42,707 nucleotides of DNA from Streptomyces boncukensis (lineage in GTDB: Bacteria; Actinomycetota; Actinomycetes; Streptomycetales; Streptomycetaceae). Position 1 is the first letter of the stretch; each line of letters starts with the position of its first letter. Under the pieces are notes generated by a model. The model saw only the letters and a list, made by a program, of their open reading frames with translations. It had not been told where the DNA came from and did no database searches. Positions 953-18,520 of the stretch are shown one piece after another. The stretch spans positions 1-42,707 of the forward strand of contig NZ_JAAKZZ010000007.1 of NCBI RefSeq assembly GCF_011045075.1, read 5' to 3'. The translations under genes and the position numbers were made by a program.

Positions 953-1174
953 CTACTGTCCTGTCGGCTCCTGCGCCGCCTCGTCGTCTGCCTGCCGCGC
1001 CTCCGCCGCAGTGCGCGCGGAGACCCATCCCTGCGTCCAGTAGCGCGCGCCGAACTGCTGCTCCGGATCGGCGCTGTACGGGTCGTAGGGGCAGGCATCC
1101 GACGGGTCGCCAGCCGTAAACGCGGCTTCCCCCTCACCGAGCAACGCCAGGTACGCCTGACGGTTCAGCTCCAC
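953..1174 (-). CDS. RMF/CrpP-like small protein
   Basis: A 73-residue protein. The pattern G..AF.AG....ACPYD ... R.W.QGW..AR resembles ribosome modulation factor and the small CrpP-like proteins (Gly-rich helix start, CPY, then W..GW). Ribosome modulation factor dimerises 70S ribosomes in stationary cells, whereas CrpP-like proteins on mobile elements have other proposed roles, so I claim only the fold-level likeness. The GTG start at 1174 has AGGAG eight bases upstream, overlapping the stop codon of the preceding gene, so translation is probably coupled. It sits between the acidic protein and the prohead protease inside the head module, which suggests expression with virion genes. Confidence 0.65.
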   Translation of the reverse strand: MELNRQAYLALLGEGEAAFTAGDPSDACPYDPYSADPEQQFGARYWTQGWVSARTAAEARQADDEAAQEPTGQ

Positions 1175-2089: not shown

Positions 2090-5000
2090 TCATCGGGTGG
2101 CGAGCAGACCGAGGAGGAACGCGCGGAGGTCGTCGTCCTCGTACCAGTCGCCGTTGAACATGGCCTGGAGGGACCGGGCGAGACTGTCACCCGTCTCGGG
2201 CTGCGTCTGCTGCGGGGCGAGGAGCCGCCCCAGGGCGCTGCGGTCGGGCCTGCGCGCGCCGGGGCGCCCGGCGTGGGTCCGGACGAACCAGAACATCCGC
2301 TGTGCGGCATCCAGGTCCGGGAGGTGTCCGGCAAGGTGCTGGGCCATGGCGTGTGCGGCGGTGCCCTGCCCCTCGTCGCCGAGATCAGCGATGGTGGCGA
2401 GGTGCGCGCCCGGTTCGTAGCGGCCCGTGTCGCCGTCCACGGCGGTGAGACGGCGCCCGTCCGGTGCGGAGAGCCAGTCCCGGGGAATGAGCCGCTGCAC
2501 GCTGCGCACGGCCCGCTCGGCGTCCGGGGTGCTGTCCGGGCCGAACACGATTCCGGCGTTGCCCCGGGGACCGAGGTCGCGCAGCTCAGCGAGGGCTCCG
2601 GCGACGGCATCGGGGGTTGCCGCAGCGTATCGGGCGCGCAGTGCCTCCCATTCACGGCGCGCGGCTGCGGCCTCCATCTGTGCGGCGGCGATCTCCACGT
2701 CCACGTCTCCGTCCTGGAGGGCGCTTCCGCTGCGCGCGGCCTGGAGGTTGAGCAGGCGCCGCTCGGTCGCGGCGACGTAGTCGTCGGCGAGGCGCATGGT
2801 GCCGTGCGGGTCGCTGCCGAAGTCATCGCCGAGCGCCGCGCCCAGACGCCGTGTGACTTGCCGGTCAACGTCCGCGCCGGCAGCCCGCAGGGCAGCCATA
2901 TGCCGTATGGCGGTCAGCCCCGGGCCGCCGTCGGCCGCGCGGTCCGGGACCCATTGGGTTCGGTCGGAGCGGCCGGGGAGCCGCCCCGCGGCGAGCTGCG
3001 CCCACGTCGTCGGCCGCCACCAGGTGACGTGGCGGGACACTTGGCCGAAGCGGCCCCGCTCGGGCAGCAGGCTCGCCCAGTGGGATACGCGCGTGACCAG
3101 GGAGCCGCCCTCGGGCTCGGGGAGATCGAGCGCGGTGCGCACACGCGCGAGGTGACGGGTCTCCGGCCAGTTCCGCACGCGGGAGACAAGGCGGCGCAGG
3201 AACGACTTCAGTCGGGATAGCCGGTCGCGGTTCTCGCGCCACATCTCGGCGATCTTCCGTGCGGCGGCCTTCACCAGTTCGATGAGGCGGCGGCCAAGAC
3301 GGCCGAGGAGAGCGACGGTGTGGGCGAGGAGTCCGGGTTGCCGTGTGGCGTCCGGTGCCGCGGCTCCGGCCCGGCGGACAATCTGGCGGGCTGCGGCCTG
3401 CCGCGTCGCGTCCAGGTGCGCGGACAGGTGCCGGGCCAGCGCCTCGGGGTCGGCCGGATCGGCTCCGGCGTCGCCGAGCTGCCGTAGGAGCGCGGTCACA
3501 GCGTCATCGGCATGCGCGGTGACCGCGCGAGCCACTTCGCTGTCCTCGTCCTCCCCGCGCTGGTGAGCGGCATCGTGGACCCTCGCCGGGATGAGCCGGA
3601 GCAGGTCCGTAGCGCGCTGTGCCAGGTCCTCGTTGCTCTCACCGGGGAGCGGTTCGAGGTCGTTGATCGTGCGCAGGGCGGCCCGGACTGTCTGGGCGTG
3701 CGCGTCCTGCCCGGCCCGCTTGAGGGCCTGGTGCGCGGCGGCACGCTCGGGGCCGGTGATCCCGGCCGTGTCGAGGGCGTTGCGCGCCTCCCGACGGGCA
3801 GCCTGCCCGGCTCCGCGCAGGGACTCGGGCGTGAGGCGCCGCGCGATCTGCTCGCGCAGCGCGTGGATGTCGCCCGGCGGCTCGGTTCCAGCTGTCGCCT
3901 CGTCGATGATCCGCGCGGCCACGGTGCGGGCGTGATCATCAACGATCCGGTTCATGGCCACTGCGGGGGCCATGCGGGGAGCGCGCGGCTCCGGGGCCGG
4001 GATCGGCTCGCTCGTGTGGTCGTCGCCTGCCGGGGGCGGCTCGGGAAGCTGCCAGAGGGGCATGGCGGCATGGACGAGGCGCCGCCGCCACTGCCGGTCT
4101 TCGTCTTCGAGGAGCAGGCTGCGTATGCCGCCGGGGCCTTCCTCCACGTCCAGGACGCGGAAGACGTGGACCTCGTCGCCGTGTCGCTCATCTGGCATGG
4201 CGATGACGTCGCCCTCGCCGATCTGCGCCGCGTTCGATGGGCGCGGCCGGTCGAGTCCGTCAGGGGCGGGTCGGCCGGCGGCCCGGTCGAGGTGGTCGGC
4301 TGCCCGTAGGGCTGCCCGGCCTTCCGCGGTCCTCGGGTCGGCGGATGCCCGGAGCTGGGCAACGAGCGCGGTCGCCTGGTCCGGCGTGACGGGCAGATCC
4401 ACGCCGAGCCGGGCGGCTGCCTGCTGGGCGTCGGGGGTGTCCTCGGGGCTGTGGCCCTGGTCGGCGATGGCGTCACGGTCGCCGGGTGTGAGCTCCGGGT
4501 CGATGGTGGGGCCGGTGACGGGGGTGATGGCTGGCAGCGGCTCGTGCACGGTCAGCTCGTCGGAGGGGGCGGGCGCGTCGTCCGGCCCGAGGTCCGGCGC
4601 CCCGCCGCCGAGCCCTTCGGCCCGGTGGACGACGGCGGTCGCGTCCAACTCCATGACGCCCAGTTCGCCGGTGCTGGTGTCGGCGTACTCGAAGGTGACG
4701 CGATCCCCTTCGCGGTTCTTGCTGCGGATCTCGACCGTCGTCAAGGTGTCGTCGAGGTCGAGCACAGCGACGTCGCCTTCGTTGACCTCCGCGGCTGTCG
4801 GGTCCGTGATGCCGGTGACCGGGGAGGTCTCGGGGGCTTCGTCTCGGACTTCGCCGATGACGCGGAGGTCTGCGGCGCTGCGGGTGAGAGTCCCCTCGGC
4901 GGTGGTGACCGTGATGCGGTCGCCGTTCGCCTCGTCGACAGGGCCGAGGAGTGCTCCGTTCTCGTCGGCGACGACATGGCCGGGGCGGACTCGCTGGCCG

Positions 5001-8000
5001 CTTGCGGTCCAGCCCTCGGGCCGGTGGTCCTCGGAGTCGACTGCGGCCAGGGAGGTGGGGGCGGTGCCGGTGTCCGTGCCGCCGTCGGCCCACCTGACGG
5101 ACACGGTGGTGTCGGTGGCTCCGGTGATCGTGCCCTGCCGGTCTCCCGAACCGGTGACCTGGCGGCCGGGGAAGAGGCCGCGGCCTTCGGCGTCTGCGGG
5201 TATGCGGTCGGGCAGCTCGCCGCTGATGACATCGCCCTGGGCGCCAGTGACTGGGGCGCCGGTGGCCGCTGTGTCCGGGGCATCGGCGCGGGCTGCGGCG
5301 CTGTCGAGCGGGGTGTAAACGACGTTGCGGGTGCCGGTGCGGCCGTCGAGGCTCTCGCCGATCGACGTGCGCCACATGTCCTGGGTGCGGCCTCGCCGGG
5401 TCACCGTGACGCGCTCGGGCGGGTCCAGGACGTATCCGGTGCGGGTCGTAGTGCGCCCGTTGCGTGTGGTGCCGTCGATACGAGCCGTGTCGCCGGGCCG
5501 GAGCCCGTCGACGCGGGCCCACTGCGCAGGCTGGCCGCCGACCGGTTCGGGCTCGGCCAGTGGTTCGGGCGGGTGCGTCTCGTCGTCGTGGGGCGGCTCG
5601 TGGACGGTGTCCGGGCCTGCGGAGGTGGGTTGTTCGGGGCGGGCAGGCCCGTCGGGTGCTGCGTGCTCGGGCTGGGTGCCGGAGCGTGTGAGTTGGTCGC
5701 TGCCTGGCGTGTTCGTCTCCGCCGCGCGGGGCTTGCGCCGTACGACGCCGAGTTCCAGGCGCGCGTCGTGCTGACGCATGGATTGCCCGTCCGGTCCGGT
5801 CCAGGTGACGTCAGCCGGGTAGCGGTGGTAGTCGCGCGAGCCGAGGGCCTGGATCCCGGTGGGGTTCCAGATGCGGGACTGGTCCTCGGTGATCGTGCCC
5901 CGCACGGTGCCGATCGGGTCCGCGCCACCGTGCGGGGACCGGTCGGTGCTGTCGGCCAGGGGGTAGGCGACCTCGTCTCCGGGCTGGAGGTCTGCGGGGT
6001 CGGCGAGCACGGTGTAGCCGTCGGCTTCCTGCTGCCGATGCCAGGCGGGGGCCATCTGGCGCCAGGCGCGTTCCTCGTCGGCGCGGTTGATGTCGAACTG
6101 CCAGCGGGGACCCTGGTCCTGGTCGTTGGCCAGCGCGCGGGCCATGGTCTCGGCGAGGCTTTCGTCGTTCGGGCCCCGGAACGTGCGGGCTCGTTCGATG
6201 GCGTCGGGGGCGTCCCACGGAAACGGGGTGCCGTCGGCGTCCCGCACGTCCTCTTCGAGGACGTTTGCCGCGTGAAGTGCGGCCTTCAGGGTGGAGAAGC
6301 CGTCGATGTGGTCGTTGAGGACGGGGGTGAGACTTCCGGGGGCGGCCACGATGTAGCGGCGGTTGTACTCGGCGCCTTCACGGACCGCACGGTTGCCGTA
6401 GACCAGGAGCCGCCTGCCCTGGGACAGGCGAGTGTTGGGGTCATCCGCAATCTCACGCCGTTCCTCGGGGCTCGGTGGGCTGGTGTGTAGTCCAGCACCG
6501 GGAGCGGGGGCGTCGAGCTGTCCGCTGCGGATGTGGTCGCGTACGGCGTTGAGATCAGCGAACCGGGGGGTGTCTGAGCTGCTCGGGGCGGCTGCCCGTT
6601 CTGACTGGCGGCCGTGATTGGGCTGCGGCTCCGGCGTATCGGGGGTTGACGGGGCCGGGGTGCTGTCCGACTCGGGTACATCGTCCTCGCCCCGGGGCTC
6701 CTCTGCTGGTGCGGATGCCTCCGGGGTGTCCTCGGCTCGACGCTGTTCCTCCTCATGCCGTTGGCGCTCGATCCGTTCTTCGGCACGGCGTTGCTGCTTG
6801 AACTGGTTGTACGTCAGCCGCCCACCGTTGTTGTCGAACCATTCGATCAGCTCTTCGCTGGCATAGTCCCGCCACCGACCGAACCGGGACAGATTCCCGC
6901 CCGAGAACACGTCGCGCTCGCTGACGGACGGCAGGCGCCTGCTGTTCCGGCTGAAGAAGTAGCCGTTGGTGGCAGCGAGGGCAGCCGTGTACCGGGCCTC
7001 GTCGAGATCCTGGAACTCGCGCTGCAAGCGCTCCTCGCGAGTCTGCGGGCGCCGAGTGACGTCCGTGCCGCCGAAGCCGAGGGCGGCATCCATGGCCTCA
7101 CCGCGGCGCCTCACCTCGTCCGTGTCGGCTGCCGGGGTGGCGGGAATGGCGTCGCGTACGCGCTGGTCAGCGTCGTCGCGGCGGTCCATCTCCTCCATGA
7201 CCCGCATCTGATCGGCCTCCGAGAGGCCGGTGCCCCATGCGGCGGCCAATTCGTCGTCTGACAGAGAGTGGAGTTCGTCTGGCAGGGCGGCGGGCTGCGG
7301 CTCGCCGGGGACGGCAGCAGGTTCCGGCTGTGCCTGCGGGATGTCGCTGTCGTCGTGCTCGCGGTCTCGCTGGAAAGCATCCCGCACCGCGCGCAGGGCC
7401 TCGGACAGCGGGCGCCTCTTGCTGTCGCGCCACTGGGCGATCACGTCGGGCGTGAGTGGCTCATGCCAGTCGATGGGCAGTCGGGACCCGTCGGTGATGT
7501 CCTCGAACCGGTCGGCCAGCTCTCGGGCCTCGTCCGCGTCTCGCGTGGTCAGGCTGATCTTTCCCAGGCGACCGCCGTTGCGTGCCTGAGCGAACCGCCA
7601 CTGTCGCGCTCCGTCGGGGTCGTCGGCGGCATCGTCGGTCCAGGTGACGAGCCCGCCGCCGGAGGAGAGGGTCAGCGTCGGGTTGTCGGCGAGCTGCGCG
7701 AGGAAGGCGCGCCGCTCCGGGGTGTTCTCCCCGGCGGTCAGCCGGTCGCCGCGCCGCCATGCTTCCCGCAGGTCCGCCACCGTGCGGGGCGGTTCACGGT
7801 CGAGCGTACCGCCGTCGTGATCAGCAGTGTCTGCACCGTCGGTGCCAGGCGGCATGCGCGGACGGTGTGGTAGGTCGGCTCTGGGCGCTCCTGGGCCACC
7901 CGCCGGGCCGCGGCCTTCTCCACCCGCACCGTGGATTCCTCGGTGACGACGGTGATGGCCGCGATCGTCTTCCCTGTCCTGAGCTGCTGGCTCTTCAGCG

Positions 8001-11000
8001 TTCGGGCGGTCCTCGGTCCTGCCGTCTGGAGTGCCCGGTGCCTGGGGGCCGCCGTCGGCCCCTTCCGGGCCCTCGTCCGGCGATGCCGCGTCCGCATCCG
8101 TGTTGGGGTCGGGGTGGCTCCGTTCATGGTCGCGCTGCTCGTCCTCCCCGTGCTGAGCGTCGTCATCGTCCTGCTGCTCGTCTTCCGGTCGCTGAGGCTC
8201 CGTTGTCTCGTCGCGCGCGGTGTCTTCCTCATGCGTCGGCACGGTGGCCGTGTCGCCTGCGGGAGAGTTGTTGTCGCGGAGATCCGGTGTTGGCTGCCCG
8301 TCTCGGTCGTCTCTGTTGATCTCCTCGTCCGGATGCCGCAGACGGAGTTCGGAGTCGCGCCTGTAGAACCGCTCCTCACCGTCGCTCGTGACGATCCGGA
8401 CGCGGCCCCGGCCCGTGAGATTCGGCGGCTCGGCAACTGTGTGAGTGCGTCCGTCGGGGTCGGTGTACCGGTCGCCCTCCTCCAGGTCGGCGGGGTGGCG
8501 CATCCGGACCGGACGCAGACGGCTGGTGTCGCGCCCCTCGTGGTCCGCGAACATGTCCGGCGTGCCGAAGTCGTCGTCGGGCTGGTCGAGCGGGTTGTCC
8601 GGGTCGGCTACTTCGGGGGACTGCGTCTCCGGCTCGTCGACGTCGAAGAGGCCGCCTCCCGCGTCTGCGGGCTCCGGCTTCTTCGGCTCGGCCTTCGGTG
8701 CCCGCCCGGCACGGCGGTCCTTCTCCGCCTCCAGCACGGCCATGCGGGTCCGGTCGGCGCCCGTCAGTTCCCCGTGGGCCATCTCCCGCTCCATCAGGGC
8801 CACGATCTCGTCGGCGAGCTCCTGATCCGTCATCGCGACGGGCGCCTTGGTGCCCTCGGGACGTATGGCGTCGAGCTGCTGGGTGACCTCGTCCTGGCCG
8901 AGGGCGACCGAGTCGTCTGAGCCCGCGGTGTCCGCTCCGGGACGGTCGGCGATCGGCTCGTCGCTTGGGGCCGGTGCCGTCTGCCCGTCGCCTTCCTCCT
9001 CGGGGGTCTCGTCCTCGCCGGAGGCAGCGGGCACCGGCGGCAAGGTGGGGCCACCGCTGTCGCCATCGCCTGCGTCCGCCAAGGTGTCCGGTGTATCGGC
9101 GTCGTCGTCACGCGTGGCGTCAGCTCCTGGCCGGAGGCGGCCGAGGGTCTGGGAGACGTCCTCGGACGGAAGCCGCACCGTGTCCCGCTCCGGTTCGTCC
9201 GGCTGTTCGGCGCGCTGGGGCTCGGGGTGCTCGCGGTCGAACTCTTCGAGGGTGAGCACCGCGGCGCCGACGGCGGCTTGGAGCGGTACGCGGGCCTGGT
9301 GGCGTTCCTCGACGATCTTCCGGCGCTGCGCCTTGGTCAGTTTCTTGTCGAGTTCGGCCTCGTCGATCTCGGGCAGCTTGTCGAGGTCGGCGATCCTGCC
9401 GACCACATCTTCCAGAAGGTGGGTGCGGGCCCGTGCGTGGTCGATCTGCGGGGTGAGGTCCGCTGCTGTCTGTGCGGACTGCAGGAGGGCTATCTGCTCA
9501 TCGAGCTCGGGCAGGCGCGCCCGGTCCGTCTGTTGAAGCGCCGGGGCCTTCTCCAGGGCGTTGACCAGCCGGGTGATCATGCCCGCCCCGGCGCCCTTCT
9601 TCTTCAGGTCGTCCGGGCTGCGTGCGAAGTCGCTGCGGGCGAGATCGGGGAAGCCGACGTGTGCGACGAGCTGGCCGTCCGCGCGGCGTTCGGTGCGCAC
9701 GCCAAGGTCGAGCCCGCCGAACTGGCCCAGGATCCTCCAGGGCCCCATGCCGTCGCGGTCGTGTTCCAGGAGCTGGGTGGTGACCTGCCGGTGCAGGGCG
9801 GCTGCGGCGTCGGAGCGCTCGGCGTACGACTGGCCGCCGAGGTTCATGCCGAAGGTGTCGCGCACGTCGCGGATGCGGGGCAGGGCGTCCTCGCGGCGGA
9901 CGATGCCCTCGCGGGTGTCGGCGAGGTCCTGTTCCAGCTCTGCCAGCGTCTCGGCGCGGCGGACGCGCTCGGCGGCCTCGTTGTGCTGGTCGATCTCCAG
10001 GTCACGGAGCGTGCGGCGGGCCTTCATGAGCTGGCTCATGTAGGGGTTGCCGCCGATCTCGGCTTCCATCGTCTCGTAGTCGAACTCGGCGCCGTCGAGC
10101 TCGGAGACGGTGTCGCTGGTGTCGCCTTCGGCGGTCTCCGGGCGCTGGATGTCGATCAGCCCCTCGGCCTTGGCGGCTACGAAGCCCGCCTTCCAGCCGT
10201 CCATGGATCCCTTGGTCGCGAAGATGTCGATCTCGACTTCGGGGTTCTGGTTGCCGTAGCGGAGGATGCGGCCGTTGCGCTGTTCCATCTGCGCGGCGCC
10301 CCAGTCGAGGTCGACGTGCGTCAGGGAGACCATGCGGTTCTGCGCGTTCATGCCCGTGCCCGCGACGGTGCTGGAGCCGATGAGGACGGAGATCTCGCCG
10401 TCCCGGGCCTTGCGGAACAGCTCGGCCAGGTCCTCGGGCTTGCCGGACTTCTTGGCGTCCTGGACGAACGCGATCTTCTCGCGGGGGATGCCGCGCTCGA
10501 CCATGAGGTCCCGCAGCTCGGCGTAGGCGTCGAAGCCGCCCTTGTTGTTGCCGCCCGGCACGCCCTCGTTCAGGAAGATCATCTGGAGTGCGCCGGGGAC
10601 CGGGTGGTCCTGTGCCCTGCCGTAGTACGTCTTGTAGACGCGGTCCTTGTAGCGGTGGTAGCGCTCCGCGTGCGCGTCGGCGACCGCCCGGAGTTTGTGA
10701 CCGGCCGGCGCCTTCGGGTCGATGAGCCGCGGGTCCAGGGCCACGCTGCTGCCTTCGTTGGACACCGCGAGCATGTTGTCCTCGTGGCGGTCCACGTCGC
10801 CGTTGTGGATTGCCCGGCCTCGGGCGACGAGGCTCTTGAGGCGGTCCAGCTGGTCCCGGGTCGGTTCGACCATGACCAGGTTCGGGGTGCCGCCCCGGAG
10901 TGCCGGGCGGGGGATGCCCACGTCGTCGGCGCGCTTGGTGTCGGCGATGAGGCCCCACATGGTCTTCATGGCGCGCTTGTTGTGGAACTCGGAGAACCGC

Positions 11001-14000
11001 TCGACGACGCGGAGTCCTGAGCCGTCGGGGGCGTTCTCGACACGCAGGACCTTGCGGCCGAATGTCGCGGCCCACAGGTCCGGGGCCCCGGCGTTGTACG
11101 TGTCGAGGATCCATGGGGCGGCGAGGGCGAGCATCGTGTACTGCTCGGTGATCGAGTTCGACAGCGGGGTGCCGGTGGCGAGGGTGACCGTGGCCCGGCC
11201 CGCGCGGCGACGGTGCAGGTCGGTCAGCTTCTGGTGCAGGTCGATGCCGCGGATCGAGGCCGGGTCTCCGCCGCCCTCCTTCGAGCGGAAGCCGACGCCC
11301 TTGTACCGGTGGGCCTCGTCGACGACGGCATAGTCGAAGCCGAGGTCGTCCCAGTACGTCTCACCCGGCGTACGCATGGGCGCGGCGTTCTTGCTGATCT
11401 TGTTCTGCACCGTCGCGATGCGCTGCTCGATCTTCGCGACGATGAACGGGTGGTTCGGGTTGTCCGCGTCCTCGTACTGCCGGTCGAGCTGCTCGCGCAG
11501 GGCCTCCAGCTCGCGGAACTCGTACTCCTCCTGCGCCTCCGGCGACATCTTGACCGACCCGAAGGCGGGTTCGGTGAAGATGACCAGGTCGGGCTTGTTG
11601 GCGCGCAGCCACTCCAGGGTGCTCGCGCGCCGCCCGTCGGCCAGGTCCGCGGACGTGATCAGGTGAATGTCCGCGTTCGGGTACGCGAACCGCGCCTCGT
11701 CGTACCACTGCTGCGCGAGATGGTCGGGGACGACGGCGAATGGCTTCTCGATCTGGCCGGAGGCCCGCAGCGCCTGGGTGCCCATCACCAGCGTGGAGGT
11801 CTTTCCCAGGCCCACCTCGTGGGAGAGGACCACCGACCGCTCGAACTGCATGCGCGCGGCGCCGGACAGCTGCCATGGGTGCGGGGTGCGGTCGGGGGTG
11901 AAGCCCTCCAGCGTGGGGGCCATGCCGTCGTAGGAACGGACGACGTGCCCGTTCATGATCTTGTTGTAGGAGTCGGTCAGGCGCGTGAGGCGGTCAGCGT
12001 TGGCCGTCGCGTACTTGGCGAACTCCGCCCGCATCTGGTCGGCCTTCTGCCGGACCAGGCGGGACGTTTCCTCATCGACATCCCGGCGCTTGTCGTCGTG
12101 GTAGACGGTCAGCGAGCCGTGGCCGAGGACGGCGCGGGCGATGTGGACGGCGTCCTTGCCCTTGGTGCCCTTCTCCGCGTTGGCCGCGACGCCGTACATG
12201 GTGTTGTTGGCCTGCGGGACCTTCCCCGCGTGGAGGATCCAGCCGTAGCGGTCGTCGTGAGCGACGCGCAGCGTGCGGTCGCCCAGGTACTCGCGCAGGA
12301 AACCCTGGACAAGCTCGGGCGGCGTCCAGTGCGCGCCCATCTCCGGGGTGAACTCGCCGATGGTGCGCTCGGCGGGCTGGACGGCATCCAGGGCGGCGAC
12401 GTTGACGGCGTACGCCGGATCCTTCTCGGCTGCGCGGCGCGCGGTGTCGAGCTTGTCGCGGACGGGGCCGGACAGGTAGGCGCCGGCCAGCTCCAGGCGG
12501 CCGGTGGCCGGGTCGGTGAAGACCTCTTTGCCGAGGCGGCGCACGGTCTCCTGCGGATCGAGATCCAGCAGGCGGGAGACCTCGCCGAGATCGACCTCGC
12601 CGGTCGCGGCGACGACCGCGGCCAGTGCCGCTTTCGGGTCGTCGGTGCGGGTCAGCGGCTGGCGGCGGGCGGCGGCGCGCTCGGTGAAGACGCGGGAGAG
12701 GACCGGCTCGCCCTTCTCGGCGTCCCACCGCTCCAGCGCGAGGACGGAGGCGGCGTCCGGGTCGGAGCGGAAGTAGCCCCACGCGGTCGGGGTGCGCTCC
12801 TGCGAGCCGTCCGGCCGGGTGCCGGACTTCATGCTGCGCACCTGGCCGGGCTTGGACATGGGCCCGAACTCGGCGACGTACGCGGTGTGCAGGTCGCGCA
12901 GCTTGCCGCGCAGGTTCTCGGCGCGCTCGTCCTCGTCGTTCTTCCGGTCCAGCTCGCGCAGCTCGGCGGCTACGTCGCGCAGCCGGATCAGGGCGCGGAG
13001 CTGGTCGGTACGCCCGTCGGACGGCACGACGGCGACCGGGTCGCCGCCGTTGACGTGCTGGTAGAGCTGACCGTCGTCGTCCTCGTAGAGGCGGCCGGTC
13101 CAGTCGTCGGCGTGCTTGTCCCGCGCGGTCCGCAGGAGCACCGGCGGCCGGTCGTCCCCGTCGGGGTGCGGCTCGTAGCCGTTGCCGTCGGCCACGGCCT
13201 GGGCGGCGATCTGCTCCAGGGCGTCACGCAGCTGGTCGGCGGCCTTGGCCGGGTCGCCCTTGACGGTCAGGCGCGGGCCGTACGGGGATGACTCGGTGGC
13301 CAGGTCACCGAGGATGTGATCGGGGTGTTCGGTGAAATACGCGTTGACGTGCTCGGTGACGCGGCCGACCTTCCGTTCCGGGGCGTTGAGCCACGACGTG
13401 TCGCCCGGCTCCTGGCCGTCGGCGCGGCGCCGCAGCACGAGCACGTCCGTGACGACGCTGGTGCCCGCGTCGTGGAAGACGCCGGAGGGCAGGCGCACCG
13501 CGCCGATCAGGTCGCCGTACTCGGCGATCCGCCGCCGGGCCTTGTCGCCCTTGGAATCCAGCGTGTGCCGTGAGGTGATCAGCAGCGTGACGCCGCCCGG
13601 CCGCGTGAGAGCCAGCTCCTTGGTGATGAACCCGTTGTGCAGGCTCTCCGCCGGGTAGCGCTTGTCACCGAAGGGGACCGAGGCGAAGGGGACGTTGCCG
13701 ATGCCCGCGTCGAAGGCGCCGGGGTGGGCGTCGGTCTCCGCGAAGTTCTCGTTGAGGACGTTAGCGTCCGGGTAGATCGCCTTGGCGATCCGCGCGGTCG
13801 TCGGGTCGAGCTCGACGCCCGTGAGGCGCGCGCCTGCCGGGGAGACGCCGAAGAACGCGCCCGAGCCAGATCCGGCCTCAAGGACGTCGCCACGCTCGAA
13901 GCCCAGGGCCTTCAGGCCGTCCCACATCGCCTCGGCGATGGGCTGCGGCGTGTAGTGCATGGACAGGGTGCCGCGGGACGCCTGCCGCCACTCCAGCGGC

Positions 14001-17000
14001 GTCAGCTCCCTCTGGAGCATGGTGCGCAGGTCGCGGTACTCGGCCCACCGGGCGTGGTCCTGCGCGAACTTCCCGTACCGTGCGCCGCCCTGCTGGTAGC
14101 GCGGTTCCTTCTCGTTCGGCTCGGCCGCGAACATGACCGGAACCGAGCCCCACCCGCTCCAGCGGGCGAGGGCGCGCTTCTCCTCGTCGGTGGCGGGACG
14201 CTCCTCCCGCTCCAGCCGCTTGAGGACCCGGATCGCCTCGACGTTCGCGGCGGCGCGCTGAATCGGGCCCTTGGCCGCGGCGTCGGCCGGGTCCGGCCGG
14301 AAGCGCGGCGCTACATGTCGTACACCGCGTCCTTCATCGCCTGCAGGTCCCGCATCTCCGGGCTGAGCGTCGGCCGCTGCTCGGCCCCCGGCTCCGGCTC
14401 CGGCAGCAGATCGCGCAGCACCTGCTCCGTCGCGCTCGCCCTGATCTGCTTGATCTGCCCCGCCCGCTCCTCGTATTCCGTCGCGGCCGGCACGGTCTCC
14501 TCCAGCGCCTCCTCGGCCGCCAGAATCGACGTCTCGATCTCCCTGCCCTTGTTCAGGAAGAACGCGTCCGGGTCCGCCATCGTCGCCAGCTCCTGCGGCC
14601 GGTACTTCGTCCAGTGCTCCCGTGCCACCTGGCTGTAGATGCTCACCGTCAGCTCCCTCCTCATCCGTTCCCAGGGCAGCGCGCAGGGCCGCCTGCTGCG
14701 CTTCGATCTCCTCGCGCGAGATGACCTTGCGGTCGTCGTCCCCACCATCCTTGCGCACGCCCTCGCGCTGCGCCCCGATCGCGTGGAGCGCAGCGTTGAT
14801 CGAGGCCAGGCGGGTCTTGGCCTTCGACCGGTCCGAGGAGTCCAGCTCCCGGTCGCTGGCCCACAGCATCATCTCGCGGGACAGTTCCTCAGTGGCGCGC
14901 TGGAACTCGGCCAGCAGGCCCTCGGGCACGTTCAGATTGACGCCCTTGCCGCTCTTCCCCGTCAGCGGGTTCGTGCCGTCGGACCAGCCGTAGTAGTGAC
15001 CCTTGAACAGGCCGTAGAGGGTCTGGCGCTCCTTGGTCGCCGAGTCGAAGCCGTCGGCGCGCCGGGAGTCGCGGTACAGCTCGAAGAACATCTTCGGCAC
15101 CCACAGGCGCCGCACGGACCCGTAAAGGCGCACCGGCTCGGTGTCGGGGTCCTGGTCGTAGCGGTGCACGAGCGCCGCCAGAGCCTCCGTCATGGACGGG
15201 TACGCGCCCAGGATGCGGCCGTGCGTGTCGAGCTGGGCGTTCCACCCCTCCTTGGGCCCGCCCGTATACGCGGAGCCGTACTCGCGGTAGACGACCGTTC
15301 CGTACCTGTTGCCGTCGACCGTGACAGCGGTGCCGTACGAACCGCTGCCCCGTAGCGGGTCCTCGCGGGTGTCGGCGCGGCTGACCGTCTGTTCCCGGCC
15401 CTCGACGCCGCGGCGGTTCTGCTCGTCGAAGACGGCCTTCAGCCGCTCGTCAAGAGCCTCTCGTTCACCGCCGCTGGCCGTTCTGCGCTGCTTGTACAGC
15501 TCGCGGAACTCGTCGGTCAGGGCCTGGTCGTCCAGCCCGGTCGGCTCGGGCCGGTTGCGGTAGGCGTCGGCCTTGCGCCTCCGCCGCTCCTCGTAAACCG
15601 CGAGCCGACGGGCCGACAGGACCTCGTTCTGCTCCTTGCCCAGGCTCTTCCAGCGGGCGGGCAGACGCAGGAACTCCTCCTCCAAGGCGGCGTCGTCCAG
15701 CTCCTGGACCGGGGGCCGCTGCTCGATGTCGCGGAGCTGCCGGGTCTGTTGCTCGGTCTCGACGGCATCCCGCCGCTCGGCCAGCGCGTTGGCCAGGTCG
15801 CGCTCCGGGTTGTCGTCCCCGTCCTCCGGCAGGTGGTTGCTCGACACCTGATGCTTCTGGCGGCGCTCGTCCAGGTCCTTCGCATGCCGGGCGAGGGCGT
15901 CATCGCTCAGGTCCTCGGGGGTGCCGGTCTGGGCGAGGAGCTGGTTCGTGCGGCGCCGCCGTTCCCCGTACAGGGCCTGCTCGTCGTCGTTGAGGAGATC
16001 ACCGCGGCGCGGTCCGCGCGGGCCACGGTCCCGCTGGGATTCGACGATCGCGCGGTCCACATCCGCGTCGCTCAACGCAGCCGCGCGCTCCTGCGGACTG
16101 GGCTTCGTCTCGCGGTCTTGGCCCTGGGTGTCGCTGTCCTGGTGGGCGATGCGGCGCCGGTCGAGTTCCGCCTCGACCTTGCGGAGGGCGGCGCGTGCCT
16201 GCTGCTTGCGGGCGGGAGTCCTGGCGACCTGGGCGTGGATCTTCAGGTTCTCGCGGTGCTCGCGCAGGTGAGCTTCAGGCATGGCCCGGAGCCGCTTGGT
16301 GTCCTCGTCGAGCTGCTCCGGCGCGTCCGCACGGTTGTCAGCGTCCTCGTCGGTGATGCGGACGTTACGGCCCTGGCGGGCGAACGCGGCGAGGATCTGC
16401 GCTGCCTTGCGATCACGGGTCTCCGGCTTCCACTGAGTACCGGTGACCCGGGCATTCTGGACGGGCGACCACGCCAGCTTTCCGGCGGCGCCGACCGCCC
16501 TGTCATCTCGCGCGTCGTCCTTGACCGTGCCGCGGACCGCAAGGATGCGCTTGCCCTTGTGCGTGGTCCAGGCAAGGTGCACACGGTCGGCCTTCGCCGG
16601 GTCGAGTGTGGCGAGGTGATGGCGGGCGATGATCTGGTCGGCGGAGGACAGGCTGTCGCCGATGGGGATGTGAACGCCGTCGACCGTGGCGTGCCGGTCG
16701 CCGTAGCTGCCGACGACACGGCCGACCAGTTTGCCGTCCGGGCCGTACACGGTGACGTTGCCGCCGGACCAGGTCGTCCAGTAGCCGTCCACTCCCTCAA
16801 CAGGCTCCGCGTCGTCCGGCACGCCTGCCGGTCGCCCCTCGGCAGCGGCCGGGTCCGGTGTCTCGTCCGGCTGACTGCCCTCGCCACCCGCAGCGTCCGG
16901 GGCGGCGTCCTCGGTGGAGGTCTTCTGCGGCGCCGGAGGGGCGTCCGGCTGTTCCGGAGCGTCCTCCGGGGCGTCACCGGTCTCCGGTGCCTGCCGGTCT

Positions 17001-18520
17001 GGAACGTTTGCCTGCGGGGCGTCGTCCTCACCGAAAGGGCGACGCCGCAGCGTCTCGGCGAGCCGGTCGTTCGCGATGCTGTGCTTCGGCGGGTGTTCCT
17101 GGTCCCAGAGGGCGCGCGCGGCCGTCCACTCCTGGTCGTAGTCGCGCCCCTTCGCCGAGCGCCACTTCGTCCGGTACTCGGCGAACTCGGGGTCGGAGAA
17201 GTCCAGCGGCGTACCGTCCTTGTCCTTGAGGGCGCCGACGACGTGCTCTGCGAACGCCTTGGCGTCGGCCTGCCGGTCAAACCACCACGACATCCGCTGG
17301 CCGCTGCCAGTGGCGTACAGGTACCAGTCCCCGTCAACACGTCGGGTGACGAACTGGCCGTCGCCGACGAGCTTGAGCCGCGACTCCTTCGCAAGGGCAT
17401 CCAGTTCCCGGGCTCTGCTCCGATCCCGCGGGCCGTTGGCGTTCCGCAGCCCGTCGGCCTGCTGGGACCAGTTGGCACGGGCCTGCTGGAGTGTGGTGAA
17501 CCTGGCGCGCGTCTGCGCATGGGTCCGCTGCTGTGCGGCAGCGGACGGGGCGTCGGATCTGCCGGAGGCCCGGAACTCACGAAGGGCACGACGAATGGCC
17601 TGCTCAGCACCCTCACCCTTGGTGGAGCGCCACGTCGGCGCCCACTGCGCCATGTCAGGGTCGGAGAAGTCGAACGGCTCGTTGAACTCGCCCGGCATGA
17701 TGTGCCCGTTGCGGACGTTGTCCTGGACGTACTCGGCCGCGGCTTCGGCCTCCTCGCGGGTGGCGAAGTCGCTGCCGCCGAGATAGCCGCCGGTGCCGGT
17801 GGAGCTGAGATACCAGTGGCCGGTGGACGCGTCTCGCGTGCTGACCAGGCCGCCGCTCGGGGTGATCCGCAGGTCTTCGTCCTCGGCGAGCCGGCGCAGA
17901 GCCTCCCCATTGGTGCCGGTCTGCTCGGCACGGTCGAGGAAATGACGCCGCACCGCGGCGGTATCGGCGAACCGGGCACCGACCTTGGCTGCACGGTTGG
18001 GCAGCGCCTCGACATCAACGTCGTGCCGGTCAGGCTCGTCCTGGTCGTCGCCGTCCTGCGGCCCCTTCCCCTGATCGCGGCTGATGGACCGACCCTCGTC
18101 GTCGGTGTCGTGCGGAGCATCCGGGGTGTCGGGGTCCCCGTGGTCGTCACGGGAGAGTCCCAGGCCGCGCCGCCCGTCGCTGTCACGACGGGCGTCCTCG
18201 GCGGCCACCTTGTTCTCGCTTCTGGTCGGGGCGCTGCCGTCGGGCCGGGCCACCATCGTGATCCACTTGGCGCTGGTTGTGTGCCGTCGGCCGGTGTACT
18301 CCCCGTTGCCCGAGCGGTCCTGGACCAGCACGCGGTCATGGGGGAGTGCCCGCAGGATGCGTGCCAGCTTCCCGCCCCACAGCCGCGCGATGCCGCCGGT
18401 CTCGACGAAGCGCCCCTTGCTGTCCCGCGGGTGCAGGGCGGGGTTCCACGGCCGTCGGGTGACCTTGGTTTCCACACCAAGCAGCAGGTCGGAGGGGGTG
18501 TGCGCGGGCGGATTCAGCAT
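2090..18520 (-). CDS. Giant composite polyvalent protein: DarB-like methyltransferase-helicase with flanking modules
   Basis: A single open frame of 5476 codons between portal and prohead-protease genes. Block A (residues about 1-1285) starts with a WNPALHPRDSKGRF motif and holds two repeat modules plus a row of helical repeats. Block B (about 1405-3510) holds an N6-adenine methyltransferase and an SF2/SNF2 helicase as in phage P1 DarB. Block C (about 3556-5476) has two more repeat modules, SH3/KOW-like barrels and a degenerate zincin-like end. Low-complexity acidic linkers join the domains. Such polyvalent proteins are known to be packaged or transferred with DNA to counter host restriction; virion delivery here is inferred from gene position. 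The frame is open throughout, but at about 14311-14665 and 7790-7985 third-base bias favours another frame, so natural A, B and C products may be separate. Block B has no ATG, GTG or TTG of its own before 14134. No Shine-Dalgarno is visible at 18520. Confidence 0.75.
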   Translation of the reverse strand: MLNPPAHTPSDLLLGVETKVTRRPWNPALHPRDSKGRFVETGGIARLWGGKLARILRALPHDRVLVQDRSGNGEYTGRRHTTSAKWITMVARPDGSAPTRSENKVAAEDARRDSDGRRGLGLSRDDHGDPDTPDAPHDTDDEGRSISRDQGKGPQDGDDQDEPDRHDVDVEALPNRAAKVGARFADTAAVRRHFLDRAEQTGTNGEALRRLAEDEDLRITPSGGLVSTRDASTGHWYLSSTGTGGYLGGSDFATREEAEAAAEYVQDNVRNGHIMPGEFNEPFDFSDPDMAQWAPTWRSTKGEGAEQAIRRALREFRASGRSDAPSAAAQQRTHAQTRARFTTLQQARANWSQQADGLRNANGPRDRSRARELDALAKESRLKLVGDGQFVTRRVDGDWYLYATGSGQRMSWWFDRQADAKAFAEHVVGALKDKDGTPLDFSDPEFAEYRTKWRSAKGRDYDQEWTAARALWDQEHPPKHSIANDRLAETLRRRPFGEDDAPQANVPDRQAPETGDAPEDAPEQPDAPPAPQKTSTEDAAPDAAGGEGSQPDETPDPAAAEGRPAGVPDDAEPVEGVDGYWTTWSGGNVTVYGPDGKLVGRVVGSYGDRHATVDGVHIPIGDSLSSADQIIARHHLATLDPAKADRVHLAWTTHKGKRILAVRGTVKDDARDDRAVGAAGKLAWSPVQNARVTGTQWKPETRDRKAAQILAAFARQGRNVRITDEDADNRADAPEQLDEDTKRLRAMPEAHLREHRENLKIHAQVARTPARKQQARAALRKVEAELDRRRIAHQDSDTQGQDRETKPSPQERAAALSDADVDRAIVESQRDRGPRGPRRGDLLNDDEQALYGERRRRTNQLLAQTGTPEDLSDDALARHAKDLDERRQKHQVSSNHLPEDGDDNPERDLANALAERRDAVETEQQTRQLRDIEQRPPVQELDDAALEEEFLRLPARWKSLGKEQNEVLSARRLAVYEERRRRKADAYRNRPEPTGLDDQALTDEFRELYKQRRTASGGEREALDERLKAVFDEQNRRGVEGREQTVSRADTREDPLRGSGSYGTAVTVDGNRYGTVVYREYGSAYTGGPKEGWNAQLDTHGRILGAYPSMTEALAALVHRYDQDPDTEPVRLYGSVRRLWVPKMFFELYRDSRRADGFDSATKERQTLYGLFKGHYYGWSDGTNPLTGKSGKGVNLNVPEGLLAEFQRATEELSREMMLWASDRELDSSDRSKAKTRLASINAALHAIGAQREGVRKDGGDDDRKVISREEIEAQQAALRAALGTDEEGADGEHLQPGGTGALDEVPAAGAGDDGGPGRVLPEQGQGDRDVDSGGRGGAGGDRAGRDGIRGAGGADQADQGERDGAGAARSAAGAGAGGRAAADAQPGDAGPAGDEGRGVRHVAPRFRPDPADAAAKGPIQRAAANVEAIRVLKRLEREERPATDEEKRALARWSGWGSVPVMFAAEPNEKEPRYQQGGARYGKFAQDHARWAEYRDLRTMLQRELTPLEWRQASRGTLSMHYTPQPIAEAMWDGLKALGFERGDVLEAGSGSGAFFGVSPAGARLTGVELDPTTARIAKAIYPDANVLNENFAETDAHPGAFDAGIGNVPFASVPFGDKRYPAESLHNGFITKELALTRPGGVTLLITSRHTLDSKGDKARRRIAEYGDLIGAVRLPSGVFHDAGTSVVTDVLVLRRRADGQEPGDTSWLNAPERKVGRVTEHVNAYFTEHPDHILGDLATESSPYGPRLTVKGDPAKAADQLRDALEQIAAQAVADGNGYEPHPDGDDRPPVLLRTARDKHADDWTGRLYEDDDGQLYQHVNGGDPVAVVPSDGRTDQLRALIRLRDVAAELRELDRKNDEDERAENLRGKLRDLHTAYVAEFGPMSKPGQVRSMKSGTRPDGSQERTPTAWGYFRSDPDAASVLALERWDAEKGEPVLSRVFTERAAARRQPLTRTDDPKAALAAVVAATGEVDLGEVSRLLDLDPQETVRRLGKEVFTDPATGRLELAGAYLSGPVRDKLDTARRAAEKDPAYAVNVAALDAVQPAERTIGEFTPEMGAHWTPPELVQGFLREYLGDRTLRVAHDDRYGWILHAGKVPQANNTMYGVAANAEKGTKGKDAVHIARAVLGHGSLTVYHDDKRRDVDEETSRLVRQKADQMRAEFAKYATANADRLTRLTDSYNKIMNGHVVRSYDGMAPTLEGFTPDRTPHPWQLSGAARMQFERSVVLSHEVGLGKTSTLVMGTQALRASGQIEKPFAVVPDHLAQQWYDEARFAYPNADIHLITSADLADGRRASTLEWLRANKPDLVIFTEPAFGSVKMSPEAQEEYEFRELEALREQLDRQYEDADNPNHPFIVAKIEQRIATVQNKISKNAAPMRTPGETYWDDLGFDYAVVDEAHRYKGVGFRSKEGGGDPASIRGIDLHQKLTDLHRRRAGRATVTLATGTPLSNSITEQYTMLALAAPWILDTYNAGAPDLWAATFGRKVLRVENAPDGSGLRVVERFSEFHNKRAMKTMWGLIADTKRADDVGIPRPALRGGTPNLVMVEPTRDQLDRLKSLVARGRAIHNGDVDRHEDNMLAVSNEGSSVALDPRLIDPKAPAGHKLRAVADAHAERYHRYKDRVYKTYYGRAQDHPVPGALQMIFLNEGVPGGNNKGGFDAYAELRDLMVERGIPREKIAFVQDAKKSGKPEDLAELFRKARDGEISVLIGSSTVAGTGMNAQNRMVSLTHVDLDWGAAQMEQRNGRILRYGNQNPEVEIDIFATKGSMDGWKAGFVAAKAEGLIDIQRPETAEGDTSDTVSELDGAEFDYETMEAEIGGNPYMSQLMKARRTLRDLEIDQHNEAAERVRRAETLAELEQDLADTREGIVRREDALPRIRDVRDTFGMNLGGQSYAERSDAAAALHRQVTTQLLEHDRDGMGPWRILGQFGGLDLGVRTERRADGQLVAHVGFPDLARSDFARSPDDLKKKGAGAGMITRLVNALEKAPALQQTDRARLPELDEQIALLQSAQTAADLTPQIDHARARTHLLEDVVGRIADLDKLPEIDEAELDKKLTKAQRRKIVEERHQARVPLQAAVGAAVLTLEEFDREHPEPQRAEQPDEPERDTVRLPSEDVSQTLGRLRPGADATRDDDADTPDTLADAGDGDSGGPTLPPVPAASGEDETPEEEGDGQTAPAPSDEPIADRPGADTAGSDDSVALGQDEVTQQLDAIRPEGTKAPVAMTDQELADEIVALMEREMAHGELTGADRTRMAVLEAEKDRRAGRAPKAEPKKPEPADAGGGLFDVDEPETQSPEVADPDNPLDQPDDDFGTPDMFADHEGRDTSRLRPVRMRHPADLEEGDRYTDPDGRTHTVAEPPNLTGRGRVRIVTSDGEERFYRRDSELRLRHPDEEINRDDRDGQPTPDLRDNNSPAGDTATVPTHEEDTARDETTEPQRPEDEQQDDDDAQHGEDEQRDHERSHPDPNTDADAASPDEGPEGADGGPQAPGTPDGRTEDRPNAEEPAAQDREDDRGHHRRHRGIHGAGGEGRGPAGGPGAPRADLPHRPRMPPGTDGADTADHDGGTLDREPPRTVADLREAWRRGDRLTAGENTPERRAFLAQLADNPTLTLSSGGGLVTWTDDAADDPDGARQWRFAQARNGGRLGKISLTTRDADEARELADRFEDITDGSRLPIDWHEPLTPDVIAQWRDSKRRPLSEALRAVRDAFQRDREHDDSDIPQAQPEPAAVPGEPQPAALPDELHSLSDDELAAAWGTGLSEADQMRVMEEMDRRDDADQRVRDAIPATPAADTDEVRRRGEAMDAALGFGGTDVTRRPQTREERLQREFQDLDEARYTAALAATNGYFFSRNSRRLPSVSERDVFSGGNLSRFGRWRDYASEELIEWFDNNGGRLTYNQFKQQRRAEERIERQRHEEEQRRAEDTPEASAPAEEPRGEDDVPESDSTPAPSTPDTPEPQPNHGRQSERAAAPSSSDTPRFADLNAVRDHIRSGQLDAPAPGAGLHTSPPSPEERREIADDPNTRLSQGRRLLVYGNRAVREGAEYNRRYIVAAPGSLTPVLNDHIDGFSTLKAALHAANVLEEDVRDADGTPFPWDAPDAIERARTFRGPNDESLAETMARALANDQDQGPRWQFDINRADEERAWRQMAPAWHRQQEADGYTVLADPADLQPGDEVAYPLADSTDRSPHGGADPIGTVRGTITEDQSRIWNPTGIQALGSRDYHRYPADVTWTGPDGQSMRQHDARLELGVVRRKPRAAETNTPGSDQLTRSGTQPEHAAPDGPARPEQPTSAGPDTVHEPPHDDETHPPEPLAEPEPVGGQPAQWARVDGLRPGDTARIDGTTRNGRTTTRTGYVLDPPERVTVTRRGRTQDMWRTSIGESLDGRTGTRNVVYTPLDSAAARADAPDTAATGAPVTGAQGDVISGELPDRIPADAEGRGLFPGRQVTGSGDRQGTITGATDTTVSVRWADGGTDTGTAPTSLAAVDSEDHRPEGWTASGQRVRPGHVVADENGALLGPVDEANGDRITVTTAEGTLTRSAADLRVIGEVRDEAPETSPVTGITDPTAAEVNEGDVAVLDLDDTLTTVEIRSKNREGDRVTFEYADTSTGELGVMELDATAVVHRAEGLGGGAPDLGPDDAPAPSDELTVHEPLPAITPVTGPTIDPELTPGDRDAIADQGHSPEDTPDAQQAAARLGVDLPVTPDQATALVAQLRASADPRTAEGRAALRAADHLDRAAGRPAPDGLDRPRPSNAAQIGEGDVIAMPDERHGDEVHVFRVLDVEEGPGGIRSLLLEDEDRQWRRRLVHAAMPLWQLPEPPPAGDDHTSEPIPAPEPRAPRMAPAVAMNRIVDDHARTVAARIIDEATAGTEPPGDIHALREQIARRLTPESLRGAGQAARREARNALDTAGITGPERAAAHQALKRAGQDAHAQTVRAALRTINDLEPLPGESNEDLAQRATDLLRLIPARVHDAAHQRGEDEDSEVARAVTAHADDAVTALLRQLGDAGADPADPEALARHLSAHLDATRQAAARQIVRRAGAAAPDATRQPGLLAHTVALLGRLGRRLIELVKAAARKIAEMWRENRDRLSRLKSFLRRLVSRVRNWPETRHLARVRTALDLPEPEGGSLVTRVSHWASLLPERGRFGQVSRHVTWWRPTTWAQLAAGRLPGRSDRTQWVPDRAADGGPGLTAIRHMAALRAAGADVDRQVTRRLGAALGDDFGSDPHGTMRLADDYVAATERRLLNLQAARSGSALQDGDVDVEIAAAQMEAAAARREWEALRARYAAATPDAVAGALAELRDLGPRGNAGIVFGPDSTPDAERAVRSVQRLIPRDWLSAPDGRRLTAVDGDTGRYEPGAHLATIADLGDEGQGTAAHAMAQHLAGHLPDLDAAQRMFWFVRTHAGRPGARRPDRSALGRLLAPQQTQPETGDSLARSLQAMFNGDWYEDDDLRAFLLGLLATR
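2275..2560 (-). other. Domain: degenerate zincin-like C-terminus
   Basis: The last roughly 100 residues read like the metallopeptidase-like tail of phage MuF-type head proteins: PRDWL, then GRYEPGAHLATIADL, then TAAHAMAQHL and LPDLDAAQRMFWFVRTHAG. In the active family the middle part is HELGH followed by PGL..AE..F..RT.G. Here the Glu is Ala and the second His is Gln, so it would not bind zinc normally. The alignment is by eye. Confidence 0.45.
4030..6025 (-). repeat. Array of SH3/KOW-like small barrel domains in block C
   Basis: At least six segments of 50-90 residues with the same outline, a GD turn followed by short strands. Their starts read LQPGDEVAYP (about 5740-6025), LRPGDTARID (5300-5530), LFPGRQVTGS with TVSVRWADG (5045-5180), VRPGHVVADENG (4860-5030), VNEGDVAVLDLDD (4610-4800) and IGEGDVIAMPDE (4030-4245). 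Another lies at 8300-8515 (LEEGDRYTDPDG). Such barrels commonly bind nucleic acid or protein. They differ enough to be old duplications. Confidence 0.6.
6115..6570 (-). repeat. Polyvalent repeat module, copy 4
   Basis: The most diverged copy: helix RFADLNAVRDHI, strand TRLSQGRRLLVYG, strand NRRYIVAAPG, helix LKAALHAANVLEEDV, then TPFPWDAPDAIERA and a closing helix. It is recognised by element order and spacing more than by identity. Confidence 0.5.
7370..7785 (-). repeat. Polyvalent repeat module, copy 3
   Basis: Diverged copy downstream of the helicase: helix RTVADLREAW, strand LTLSSGGGLVTW, strand ARQWRFAQARNG, helix DADEARELADRFEDI, then LPIDWHEPLTPDVIAQW and a closing helix. The order matches copies 1 and 2, but the DFSDP motif has become DWHEP. 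Confidence 0.6.
7738..7990 (-). other. Second frame-switch region in the giant frame; possible small gene
   Basis: Over about 7790-7985 the giant frame encodes an atypical Arg/His/Gly-rich stretch. The overlapping minus frame ending at TGA 7738 has the stronger third-base bias: 18 of 20 codons end in G or C against 11 of 20 in the giant frame, counted from about 7985 down. A GTG at 7929 with GAGGA seven bases upstream could start a 63-residue product (RVEKAAARRVAQERPEPTY...), which I do not recognise. Alternatives are a compensated pair of indels in a linker, or a lost gene border before block C, whose first ATG is at 7855. Confidence 0.4.
10170..11890 (-). other. Domain: SF2/SNF2-type helicase
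   Basis: Within block B, after the methyltransferase. Walker A HEVGLGKTSTL lies near residue 2237, motif II VVDEAHRYKG near 2400, SATGTPLSN-type motif III reads LATGTPLSNS, and the C-terminal lobe has IGSSTVAGTGMNAQ and motif VI MEQRNGRILRYGNQ near 2748. A coiled coil (about residues 2830-2875) follows. All residues needed for ATP hydrolysis are visible, so it should be an active translocase. Confidence 0.88.
13215..14300 (-). other. Domain: DarB-like N6-adenine methyltransferase
   Basis: Within block B. A conserved lead-in RWSGWGSVP is followed by LSMHYTPQPIAEAMWDGL, the SAM-binding motif I VLEAGSGSGAFFG near residue 1547, an acidic turn GVELDPTTARIAK and the catalytic motif IGNVPF near residue 1608, a variant of NPPF seen in DarB-like enzymes. 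LLITSRHTLDS and IGAVRLPSGVF then follow, as in that family. The expected activity is adenine-N6 methylation of the DNA that the protein accompanies. Confidence 0.85.
14311..14646 (-). CDS. Small conserved-looking protein embedded in the giant frame
   Basis: A 111-residue protein in a different frame from the giant gene, fully inside it. It begins with SIYSQVAREHWTKYRPQ and DPDAFFLNKGREIE, followed by acidic helices, and ends VYDM. I recall small proteins of this type beside DarB-like genes in actinobacterial elements, but cannot name the family. Coding is well supported: of its first 20 codons 19 end in G or C, while the giant frame has 8 of 20 over the same bases. The GTG start at 14646 has GGAGG nine bases upstream; an ATG at 14664 is an alternative. 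Its stop TAG lies where the methyltransferase homology begins. The order fits an ancestral operon of block A, this gene and block B. Its function is unknown. Confidence 0.78.
   Translation of the reverse strand: MSIYSQVAREHWTKYRPQELATMADPDAFFLNKGREIETSILAAEEALEETVPAATEYEERAGQIKQIRASATEQVLRDLLPEPEPGAEQRPTLSPEMRDLQAMKDAVYDM
15400..16320 (-). repeat. Row of charged helical-hairpin repeats in block A
   Basis: About 300 residues of highly charged helices with a recurring start such as LSDADVD, LSDDALARH, LDDAALEEEF or LDDQALTDEF, each followed by an E.RRR helix. Related units recur at about 8690-8860 (MTDQELADEI) and 7165-7265 (LSDDELAAAW). They look like coiled-coil spacers between the enzyme domains. 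Confidence 0.6.
17095..17510 (-). repeat. Polyvalent repeat module, copy 2
   Basis: Same layout as copy 1: strand LKLVGDGQFVTRR, then GDWYLYATGSG, helix ADAKAFAEHVVGAL, then PLDFSDPEFAEY and WRSAKGRD. The DFSDP and WRS(T/A)KG motifs are nearly identical to copy 1, so these two look like the most recent pair. Confidence 0.7.
17570..17985 (-). repeat. Polyvalent repeat module, copy 1
   Basis: Protein-level repeat of about 130 residues inside the giant frame. Its order is an N-terminal helix (FADTAAVRRHF), a strand LRITPSGGLVS, a GHWYLSSTG strand, a helix EEAEAAAEYVQDN, then FDFSDPDMAQW and WRSTKGE with a closing helix. Copies 2-4 keep this order. Confidence 0.7.

Follow-up and report, generated by a model that had tools for sequence, protein, structure and literature searches.

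Two questions are raised by the window, by which we mean the whole stretch of 42,707 nucleotides analysed from a draft contig of Streptomyces boncukensis: is a single open frame of 5476 codons one gene or several, and why does its coding bias break off on the way? The frame lies on the minus strand (2090..18520), is continuous from an ATG start and encodes a giant DarB-like polyvalent protein of 5476 amino acids. A sequence-only reading had placed it between portal and prohead protease, and Pfam and PHROGs matches bear out this head and packaging setting, with a phage portal gene at 18628..20301 (minus strand; PF04860, E 3.8e-45) and a prohead protease gene, truncated by the contig end, at 3..1028 (minus strand; PF04586, E 3.6e-12; phrog_80). 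Two small ORFs are situated between the giant gene and the prohead protease gene. A second phage portal gene, with a better Pfam match than that of the window, is present elsewhere in the same genome (contig C741, locus L001).

Three blocks had been distinguished within the frame, and separate searches of them against Pfam and PHROGs were informative for one only. Block B (9400..14293, minus strand) comprises the core with helicase and putative methylase and matched phrog_10089, ‘DarB-like antirestriction’, with E 2.1e-268, so that the earlier recognition of a DarB-like polyvalent gene in a phage head module was confirmed, whereas blocks A and C gave nothing significant in these scans. An SNF2-type helicase is present in the giant protein, as Helicase_C scored 24.4 bits against a cut-off of 23.5; SNF2-rel_dom, with 21.9 bits, stayed below its cut-off of 24.9. 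A PHROGs methyltransferase (phrog_3820) matched residues 119-216 of block B with E 8.1e-9, and no Pfam methylase was found in the giant protein at E 0.01. Blocks A (N-terminal, 14647..18520, minus strand) and C (C-terminal, 2093..7729, minus strand) are linked by a repeated domain, of which two copies occur in A (residues ~199-327 and ~376-463 of the giant protein) and a third in C (residues ~3598-3730, positions 7729-7331); the best similarity had E 1.25e-7 within A and ~1e-4 between A and C.

At 21277-35065 on the minus strand, PADLOC profiles recognised five neighbouring DISARM-type genes (DrmD, DrmMI, DrmA, DrmB, DrmC), a complete DISARM set, presumably of class 1. This set adjoins the portal gene on its upstream side, so that the phage-like element has a defence system in addition to its giant gene of antirestriction type.

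The coding bias had been described as leaving the giant frame in two places, of which one is sharp and the other much weaker. At ~14665-14311 GC at the three codon positions changes to 0.97/0.70/0.43 against the usual ~0.70/0.50/0.94, and this departure is caused by a small gene in the +1 frame relative to the giant gene. The small gene (14311..14646, minus strand) encodes 111 amino acids from a GTG start to a TAG stop at 14311-14313 and is preceded by the Shine-Dalgarno-like GAGGAGGGAG (14653..14662, minus strand), with GAGGAGG upstream of the GTG; translation may alternatively begin at an ATG at 14664. It lies wholly inside the giant gene, covering giant residues 1292-1404 just before the DarB-like core. 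The giant-frame product over this stretch is rich in Gly, Ala, Arg, Asp and Pro and likely forms a disordered linker. As had been stated, block B possesses no start of its own in the spacer, for the giant frame contains no ATG, GTG or TTG between residues 1256 and 1462. The first departure recurs in all relatives profiled, namely a plasmid homologue (L012) and the phages PEp14 and LASTA. The second departure, near 8170-7720 at the passage from B to C, is compositional, and further single windows, mostly in A and C, show first-position GC slightly above that of the third position. A second small gene at the B/C passage was considered and rejected: the +1 reading at 8020-7720 resembles a short ORF, which is not shared by a relative (L024).

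Full-length counterparts of the giant frame exist. On the circular 129.6-kb Streptomyces plasmid CP108533.1, where the gene order of the window is repeated with portal, giant CDS and then the major capsid gene, a single CDS of 5846 amino acids (L012) leaves its frame at the same place, and another frame (L015) extends over 5463 codons from stop to stop. Because of these homologues, because of the repeated domain common to A and C, and because the Arg/Gly/Pro-rich B/C linker (7720..8020, minus strand) has a counterpart in the giant frame of two relatives (L024 and L012) that is similar by eye, the 5476-codon frame is one gene and not three, with A, B and C as parts of one protein. The earlier suggestion of a real fusion is hence upheld, and that of three neighbouring genes which merely read through is given up; full-length homologues with conserved linkers, named beforehand as the finding that would refute the earlier reading, were encountered as far as the homologues and the B/C linker are concerned, whereas the A/B stretch proved to be the nested +1 gene. 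It could be objected that indels in the assembly or sequencing of the contig produced the joined frame, since the genome is a draft of 8.27 Mb in 1141 contigs and an ATGA at 14664 holds a third-frame stop at the end of A. However, complete records of plasmids and phages, viral contigs and further genomes contain the joined frame as well, and such an artefact is vanishingly improbable. A separate gene A, ended at this ATGA through a missing base, was also tried and rejected, since relatives of the same layout are joined in the same way.

Is the small ORF itself a gene? Nested ORFs are frequent in GC-rich DNA, and when the window copy is taken by itself, Pfam, NCBIfam and PHROGs give it no significant match; both would suit an ORF that merely shadows the giant coding sequence or its composition. 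Against this, the codon bias follows the small frame instead of the giant one over just this stretch, copies exist outside giant genes, and a Shine-Dalgarno match of at least 4 nt stands before the small start in 45/46 dereplicated actinobacterial loci (background 43/351) and in 26/27 dereplicated loci of the phage-type set (background 117/945). Furthermore, the protein is conserved and TnpV-like, one relative scoring above the Pfam cut-off, and third positions are the fastest of its three in 5/5 clades. A shadow is therefore hardly to be credited.

The TnpV family (PF14198) is known from Tn4451-type mobile elements. When 14 small proteins including that of the window were scanned for it, one exceeded the cut-off (L105, 27.4 bits against 27), ten stayed below it with 14.3-25.6 bits, three of them reaching 23.9-25.6, and three (the window copy, L012 and L038) had no match; for the window copy this holds at E up to 1. 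An earlier Pfam scan of eight small proteins yielded one TnpV match (E 0.0075), and in 16 of 57 plasmid records the small gene bears the NCBI label ‘TnpV protein’. The window and PEp14 copies share only 17% identity, and the family is joined through a chain of profiles. Lengths in relatives vary from 80 to 187 amino acids, the window protein has a net charge of -10, and the median pI over 107 loci is 4.6 (range 4.2-8.0). An AlphaFold2 model from 21 aligned sequences is all helical with a pLDDT of 86.2; Foldseek returned best E-values of 4.3 in PDB and 1.8 in BFVD for it, and VIA-align a maximal Z of 5.9, which is ordinary for helical models; the fold thus gives no hint of a function. The small proteins are thus predicted to be acidic, helical and TnpV-like, the window copy itself not matching TnpV.

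How far the nested layout is distributed was followed with the small protein. It was found in 8/150 genomes of the genus, one of the eight copies (L010) looking unrelated, and profile searches found it in 20/392 genomes of the genus, 13/296 of the class and 6/296 of the phylum, counts that each include the genome of the window and stem from overlapping genome sets. In named GTDB contigs 21 loci were confirmed. For every copy, the position of the DarB core and the openness of the frame one base back, which is the giant frame, were determined. The 66 locus rows correspond to 44 distinct loci, the other 22 being the same places reached by another route, and after dereplication 38 remained: 29 nested, one doubtful with the core farther off (L042), seven separate and one in which no core was found (L030). 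In the 29 nested loci the core follows within ~75 nt downstream in the giant frame, which is open through the small gene.

All 13 plasmid loci show the nested layout, six of them from Sinomonas, Pseudonocardia, Pimelobacter, Arthrobacter, Micromonospora and Microbacterium. Across the loci L066-L095, which include ten of these 13 and range in GC from 0.58 to 0.73, the giant frame was open in 30/30 and the core matched in the expected frame in 28/30, the exceptions being L082 and a locus close to the end of its contig, L088; at L094 the core match is 1481 nt away from the small gene, and at L092 the giant frame ends soon after it. Four phylum-wide loci (L103-L106) are nested as well, among them L105 with 47% GC, where the third frame has 11 stops inside the small gene and the giant frame none, the latter ending 641 nt past the small gene. 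In viruses, the giant frame was open inside the small gene in 61/61 loci, and each of the 60 loci with a core match had it in the expected frame. Fifteen of these loci are of Streptomyces type and 43 stem from a second IMG/VR scan; the others are the phages PEp14, LASTA and PBC5, three of which, judged by length, recur among the 43. The annotated DarB-like CDSs of PEp14 and LASTA (4914 and 4433 amino acids) span the nested gene, and match coordinates indicate the same frame relation in the phages SopranoGao, Pavtok, POI1126, Itty13 and Stean. Hence the nested arrangement recurs across Actinomycetota, on chromosomes and plasmids, and in phages of Pseudomonadota.

An obvious rival is that A, the small gene and B (and C) are separate neighbours and that the giant frame is open merely because GC-rich DNA is poor in stops, as the sequence-only reading had also considered. 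It gains some weight from the small number of giant-frame stops expected, only ~0.3-2 per gene in the 29 nested loci. A test was available in the codon context, because a codon of the small gene that ends in T creates a stop in the giant frame when it precedes a codon beginning with AA, AG or GA. The set comprised 107 loci, of which dereplication at 90% left 76, and fell into 28 clades at 45% identity, L103-L106 being left out; loci had entered by presence of the small gene, and the 29 nested ones had further been picked for a close core, not for openness. Inside the small gene of the 76 dereplicated loci the giant frame contains 0 stops, compared with 351 in the third frame. A T-ending codon stood before an AA, AG or GA codon in 0/1790 cases and before other codons in 387/4206, with a Fisher p of at most 1.3e-17 when one locus per clade was used, and synonymous permutation within genes (28 loci) gave a mean of 29.5 giant-frame stops with a minimum of 19, where 0 were observed. 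The avoidance disappears in the controls, that is in the DarB core of the 29 nested loci (102/2509 against 386/8840, p 0.54) and in seven non-nested copies of the small gene (17/155 against 61/561, p 1.0). Phage-type loci alone (27 loci, 6 clades) show 0/612 against 132/1219; here shuffling within genes discriminates weakly (mean 3.9 stops, minimum 0), and redrawing by helicase codon usage gave a mean of 15.8 stops with a minimum of 9. As the avoidance belongs to nested small genes and loci of 47-60% GC are open too, openness through high GC is contradicted.

Substitution rates point in the same direction. Although third positions of the small gene are its fastest, they are slower than the third positions of both flanks in 5/5 clades (in an example clade 0.142 against 0.304 and 0.241), as would be expected if they are at the same time first positions of another coding frame. 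In pooled deeper pairs, substitutions are spread evenly across the codon positions (375, 454, 415). The outer frame is under selection inside the overlap, as judged by T-codon context and permutation, and so is the inner one, as judged by protein conservation, Shine-Dalgarno sites and codon-position rates; avoidance of giant-frame stops together with slowed third positions accordingly places both frames under selection. Across 102 loci, moreover, the distances of the small gene go with those of the core (Mantel r 0.859, 0/999 permutations). This would be expected under joint descent, although the gene may also have been inserted repeatedly in the same frame.

Start sites bear on the same rival. 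In the window A has no stop and B no start, and in 44/107 loci the giant frame lacks ATG, GTG and TTG between the small start and the helicase motif, a start with a Shine-Dalgarno site being found there in only 14/107; translation of the core must therefore often begin farther upstream. Of the 46 dereplicated actinobacterial loci, 27 have a short leader, the giant frame opening less than 400 nt ahead of the small gene, and in 23 of these 27 loci a conserved N-terminal peptide (such as MARR..DGQLSLESLWA; GQLSLESLW and variants) is recognisable by eye upstream of the small gene in the frame of the helicase. A similar leader peptide, again by eye, begins two alphaproteobacterial plasmid homologues without a small gene, and thus the leader belongs to the helicase protein. 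In favour of separate genes it may be said that the NCBI starts of several helicases fall after the small gene or at its very end, and that one locus (L053) has plainly separate genes, the small gene standing directly before a helicase with its own ATG and the -1 frame containing 7 stops. Taken with the stop tests, the leader makes separate neighbours with an accidentally open frame very improbable.

Annotation, which mostly allows one gene per stretch, treats the overlap in two ways in the records examined: in Streptomyces plasmids and phages the small gene is dropped, and in other actinobacterial plasmids the N-terminus of the helicase is cut off instead. At L069-L073 and similar plasmid loci the NCBI helicase start lies after the small gene and misses the conserved upstream peptide, at L074 it lies at the end of the small gene, and pTC2 (L087) is annotated with an earlier helicase start. 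On a 938.8-kb linear Streptomyces plasmid (L066; NZ_CP108821.1, 149205-181922) a single CDS of 32,718 nt (~10,905 amino acids), annotated as ‘UvrD-helicase domain-containing protein’, contains the nested small gene.

A further explanation would be programmed frameshifting from A into the small frame (+1) and back into B (-1), resulting in one A-small-B protein. The frame relation of small and giant gene is indeed the same nearly everywhere, and in phage PBC5 (L126; the same phage as L144) the upstream part reads in the frame of the small gene and ends at its stop. However, two opposite shifts would be needed and the giant frame would be kept free of stops needlessly, the small gene has its own Shine-Dalgarno site and start in nearly all loci, and in 14/104 loci its frame opens at most 15 nt from the start, which leaves almost no room for a shift. 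We regard frameshifting as unlikely. The split DarB-like gene of PBC5 possibly reflects a frameshift or a sequence error; relatives such as Atu_ph08 are described as having one protein of 4877 amino acids. Phage copies of the small protein and that of L105 match the very end of phrog_938, ‘endolysin’, a profile that we think was built on the shifted frame of PBC5.

Not every DarB-like gene has the insert. The small gene was absent in 5/5 other DarB-like plasmid loci (R. opacus, Agrobacterium, Streptococcus, Acetobacter, Lactobacillus), and tblastn with one query detected it in 20 phage records, compared with 113 phage records with the core; none of the Burkholderia phages listed among the core matches was among these 20. 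A second, non-nested copy lies just upstream of the nested one at four loci (L038, ~7388-7708; L009, 894-1214; L040, 7391-7708; L054, 1040-1429), and these four make up, with three further separate copies, the seven controls in which giant-frame stops are not avoided. The core of L057 is 947 nt from the small gene, and the core search at L059 and L030 gave no match.

Taken together, we consider it highly probable that one DNA stretch encodes two proteins, a single DarB-like giant and a separate small +1 protein made from an internal start. The giant protein would consist of a repeat-bearing N-terminal part, a flexible linker rich in Gly, Ala, Arg and Asp, the SNF2-helicase/methylase core, a second linker and the C-terminal part. 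Within the DNA of the first linker, an internal Shine-Dalgarno site would let ribosomes start anew in the +1 frame, resulting in a separate, mostly acidic and helical TnpV-like protein that ends just before the helicase core. We infer internal initiation on one mRNA and a single ancient origin, in which a TnpV-like gene lodged in the linker; since TnpV-like genes exist alone, DarB-like genes exist without insert, and the nested gene lies between N-terminal part and core, lodging in the linker explains the layout best. By analogy with P1 DarB, the giant protein most likely enters a new host with the DNA and would protect it there from restriction. Cooperation of the small protein with the DarB-like motor, for instance as a partner or as a helper that mimics DNA and is produced in step with the motor, is a guess from the place of the gene and the charge of the protein, and a rather doubtful one. 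Also speculative is the wider picture of a single ancient invention kept in the +1 frame in phages, plasmids and chromosomal elements across hosts of at least two phyla, with the small protein as a dedicated motor partner that would act as loader, regulator or, by mimicking DNA, as anti-restriction helper, its production being tied to that of the motor and its delivery perhaps likewise. The small gene is a candidate partner beside DarB-like antirestriction proteins, and a gene pair nested over such a host range would be an unusually widespread same-strand nested pair.

DarB-like polyvalent proteins, with P1 DarB and the giants of Bcep22-like phages, PEp14 and LASTA (Iyer et al., 2017; PMC5512222), resemble that of the window in combining an SNF2-type helicase with a methylase, which is putative in the window protein, and in lying among head genes, and the genes of PEp14 and LASTA have the same nested gene. 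The main text of that paper seems to describe no nested gene and mentions neither overlap nor TnpV nor a small protein, its two uses of ‘nested’ and one of ‘reading frame’ relating to other matters; its excerpts report P1 DarB as carried in the virion or transferred with DNA, and excerpts on phage JC1 place the DarB-like gp69 among the virion proteins (PMC9144972). The literature matches listed, mostly openly accessible papers, do not report nesting of a gene within DarB-like genes or of TnpV. As to the TnpV family, nested relatives match PF14198, mostly below its cut-off, and the window copy does not; in the excerpts of PMC3158075 a role in excision is postulated for TnpV by homology with lambda Xis, and the tnpV genes are listed as ordinary ORFs, unlike the nested gene described here. 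The Rz/Rz1 spanin genes, of which an embedded Rz1 is described in excerpts on JC1 (PMC9144972), and other same-strand phage overlaps likewise hold a small gene wholly within a larger one. Unlike Rz/Rz1, the small gene reported here is related to an independent mobile-element family, has its place where a giant protein has a linker, and is shared by phages, plasmids and chromosomes whose hosts come from two phyla.
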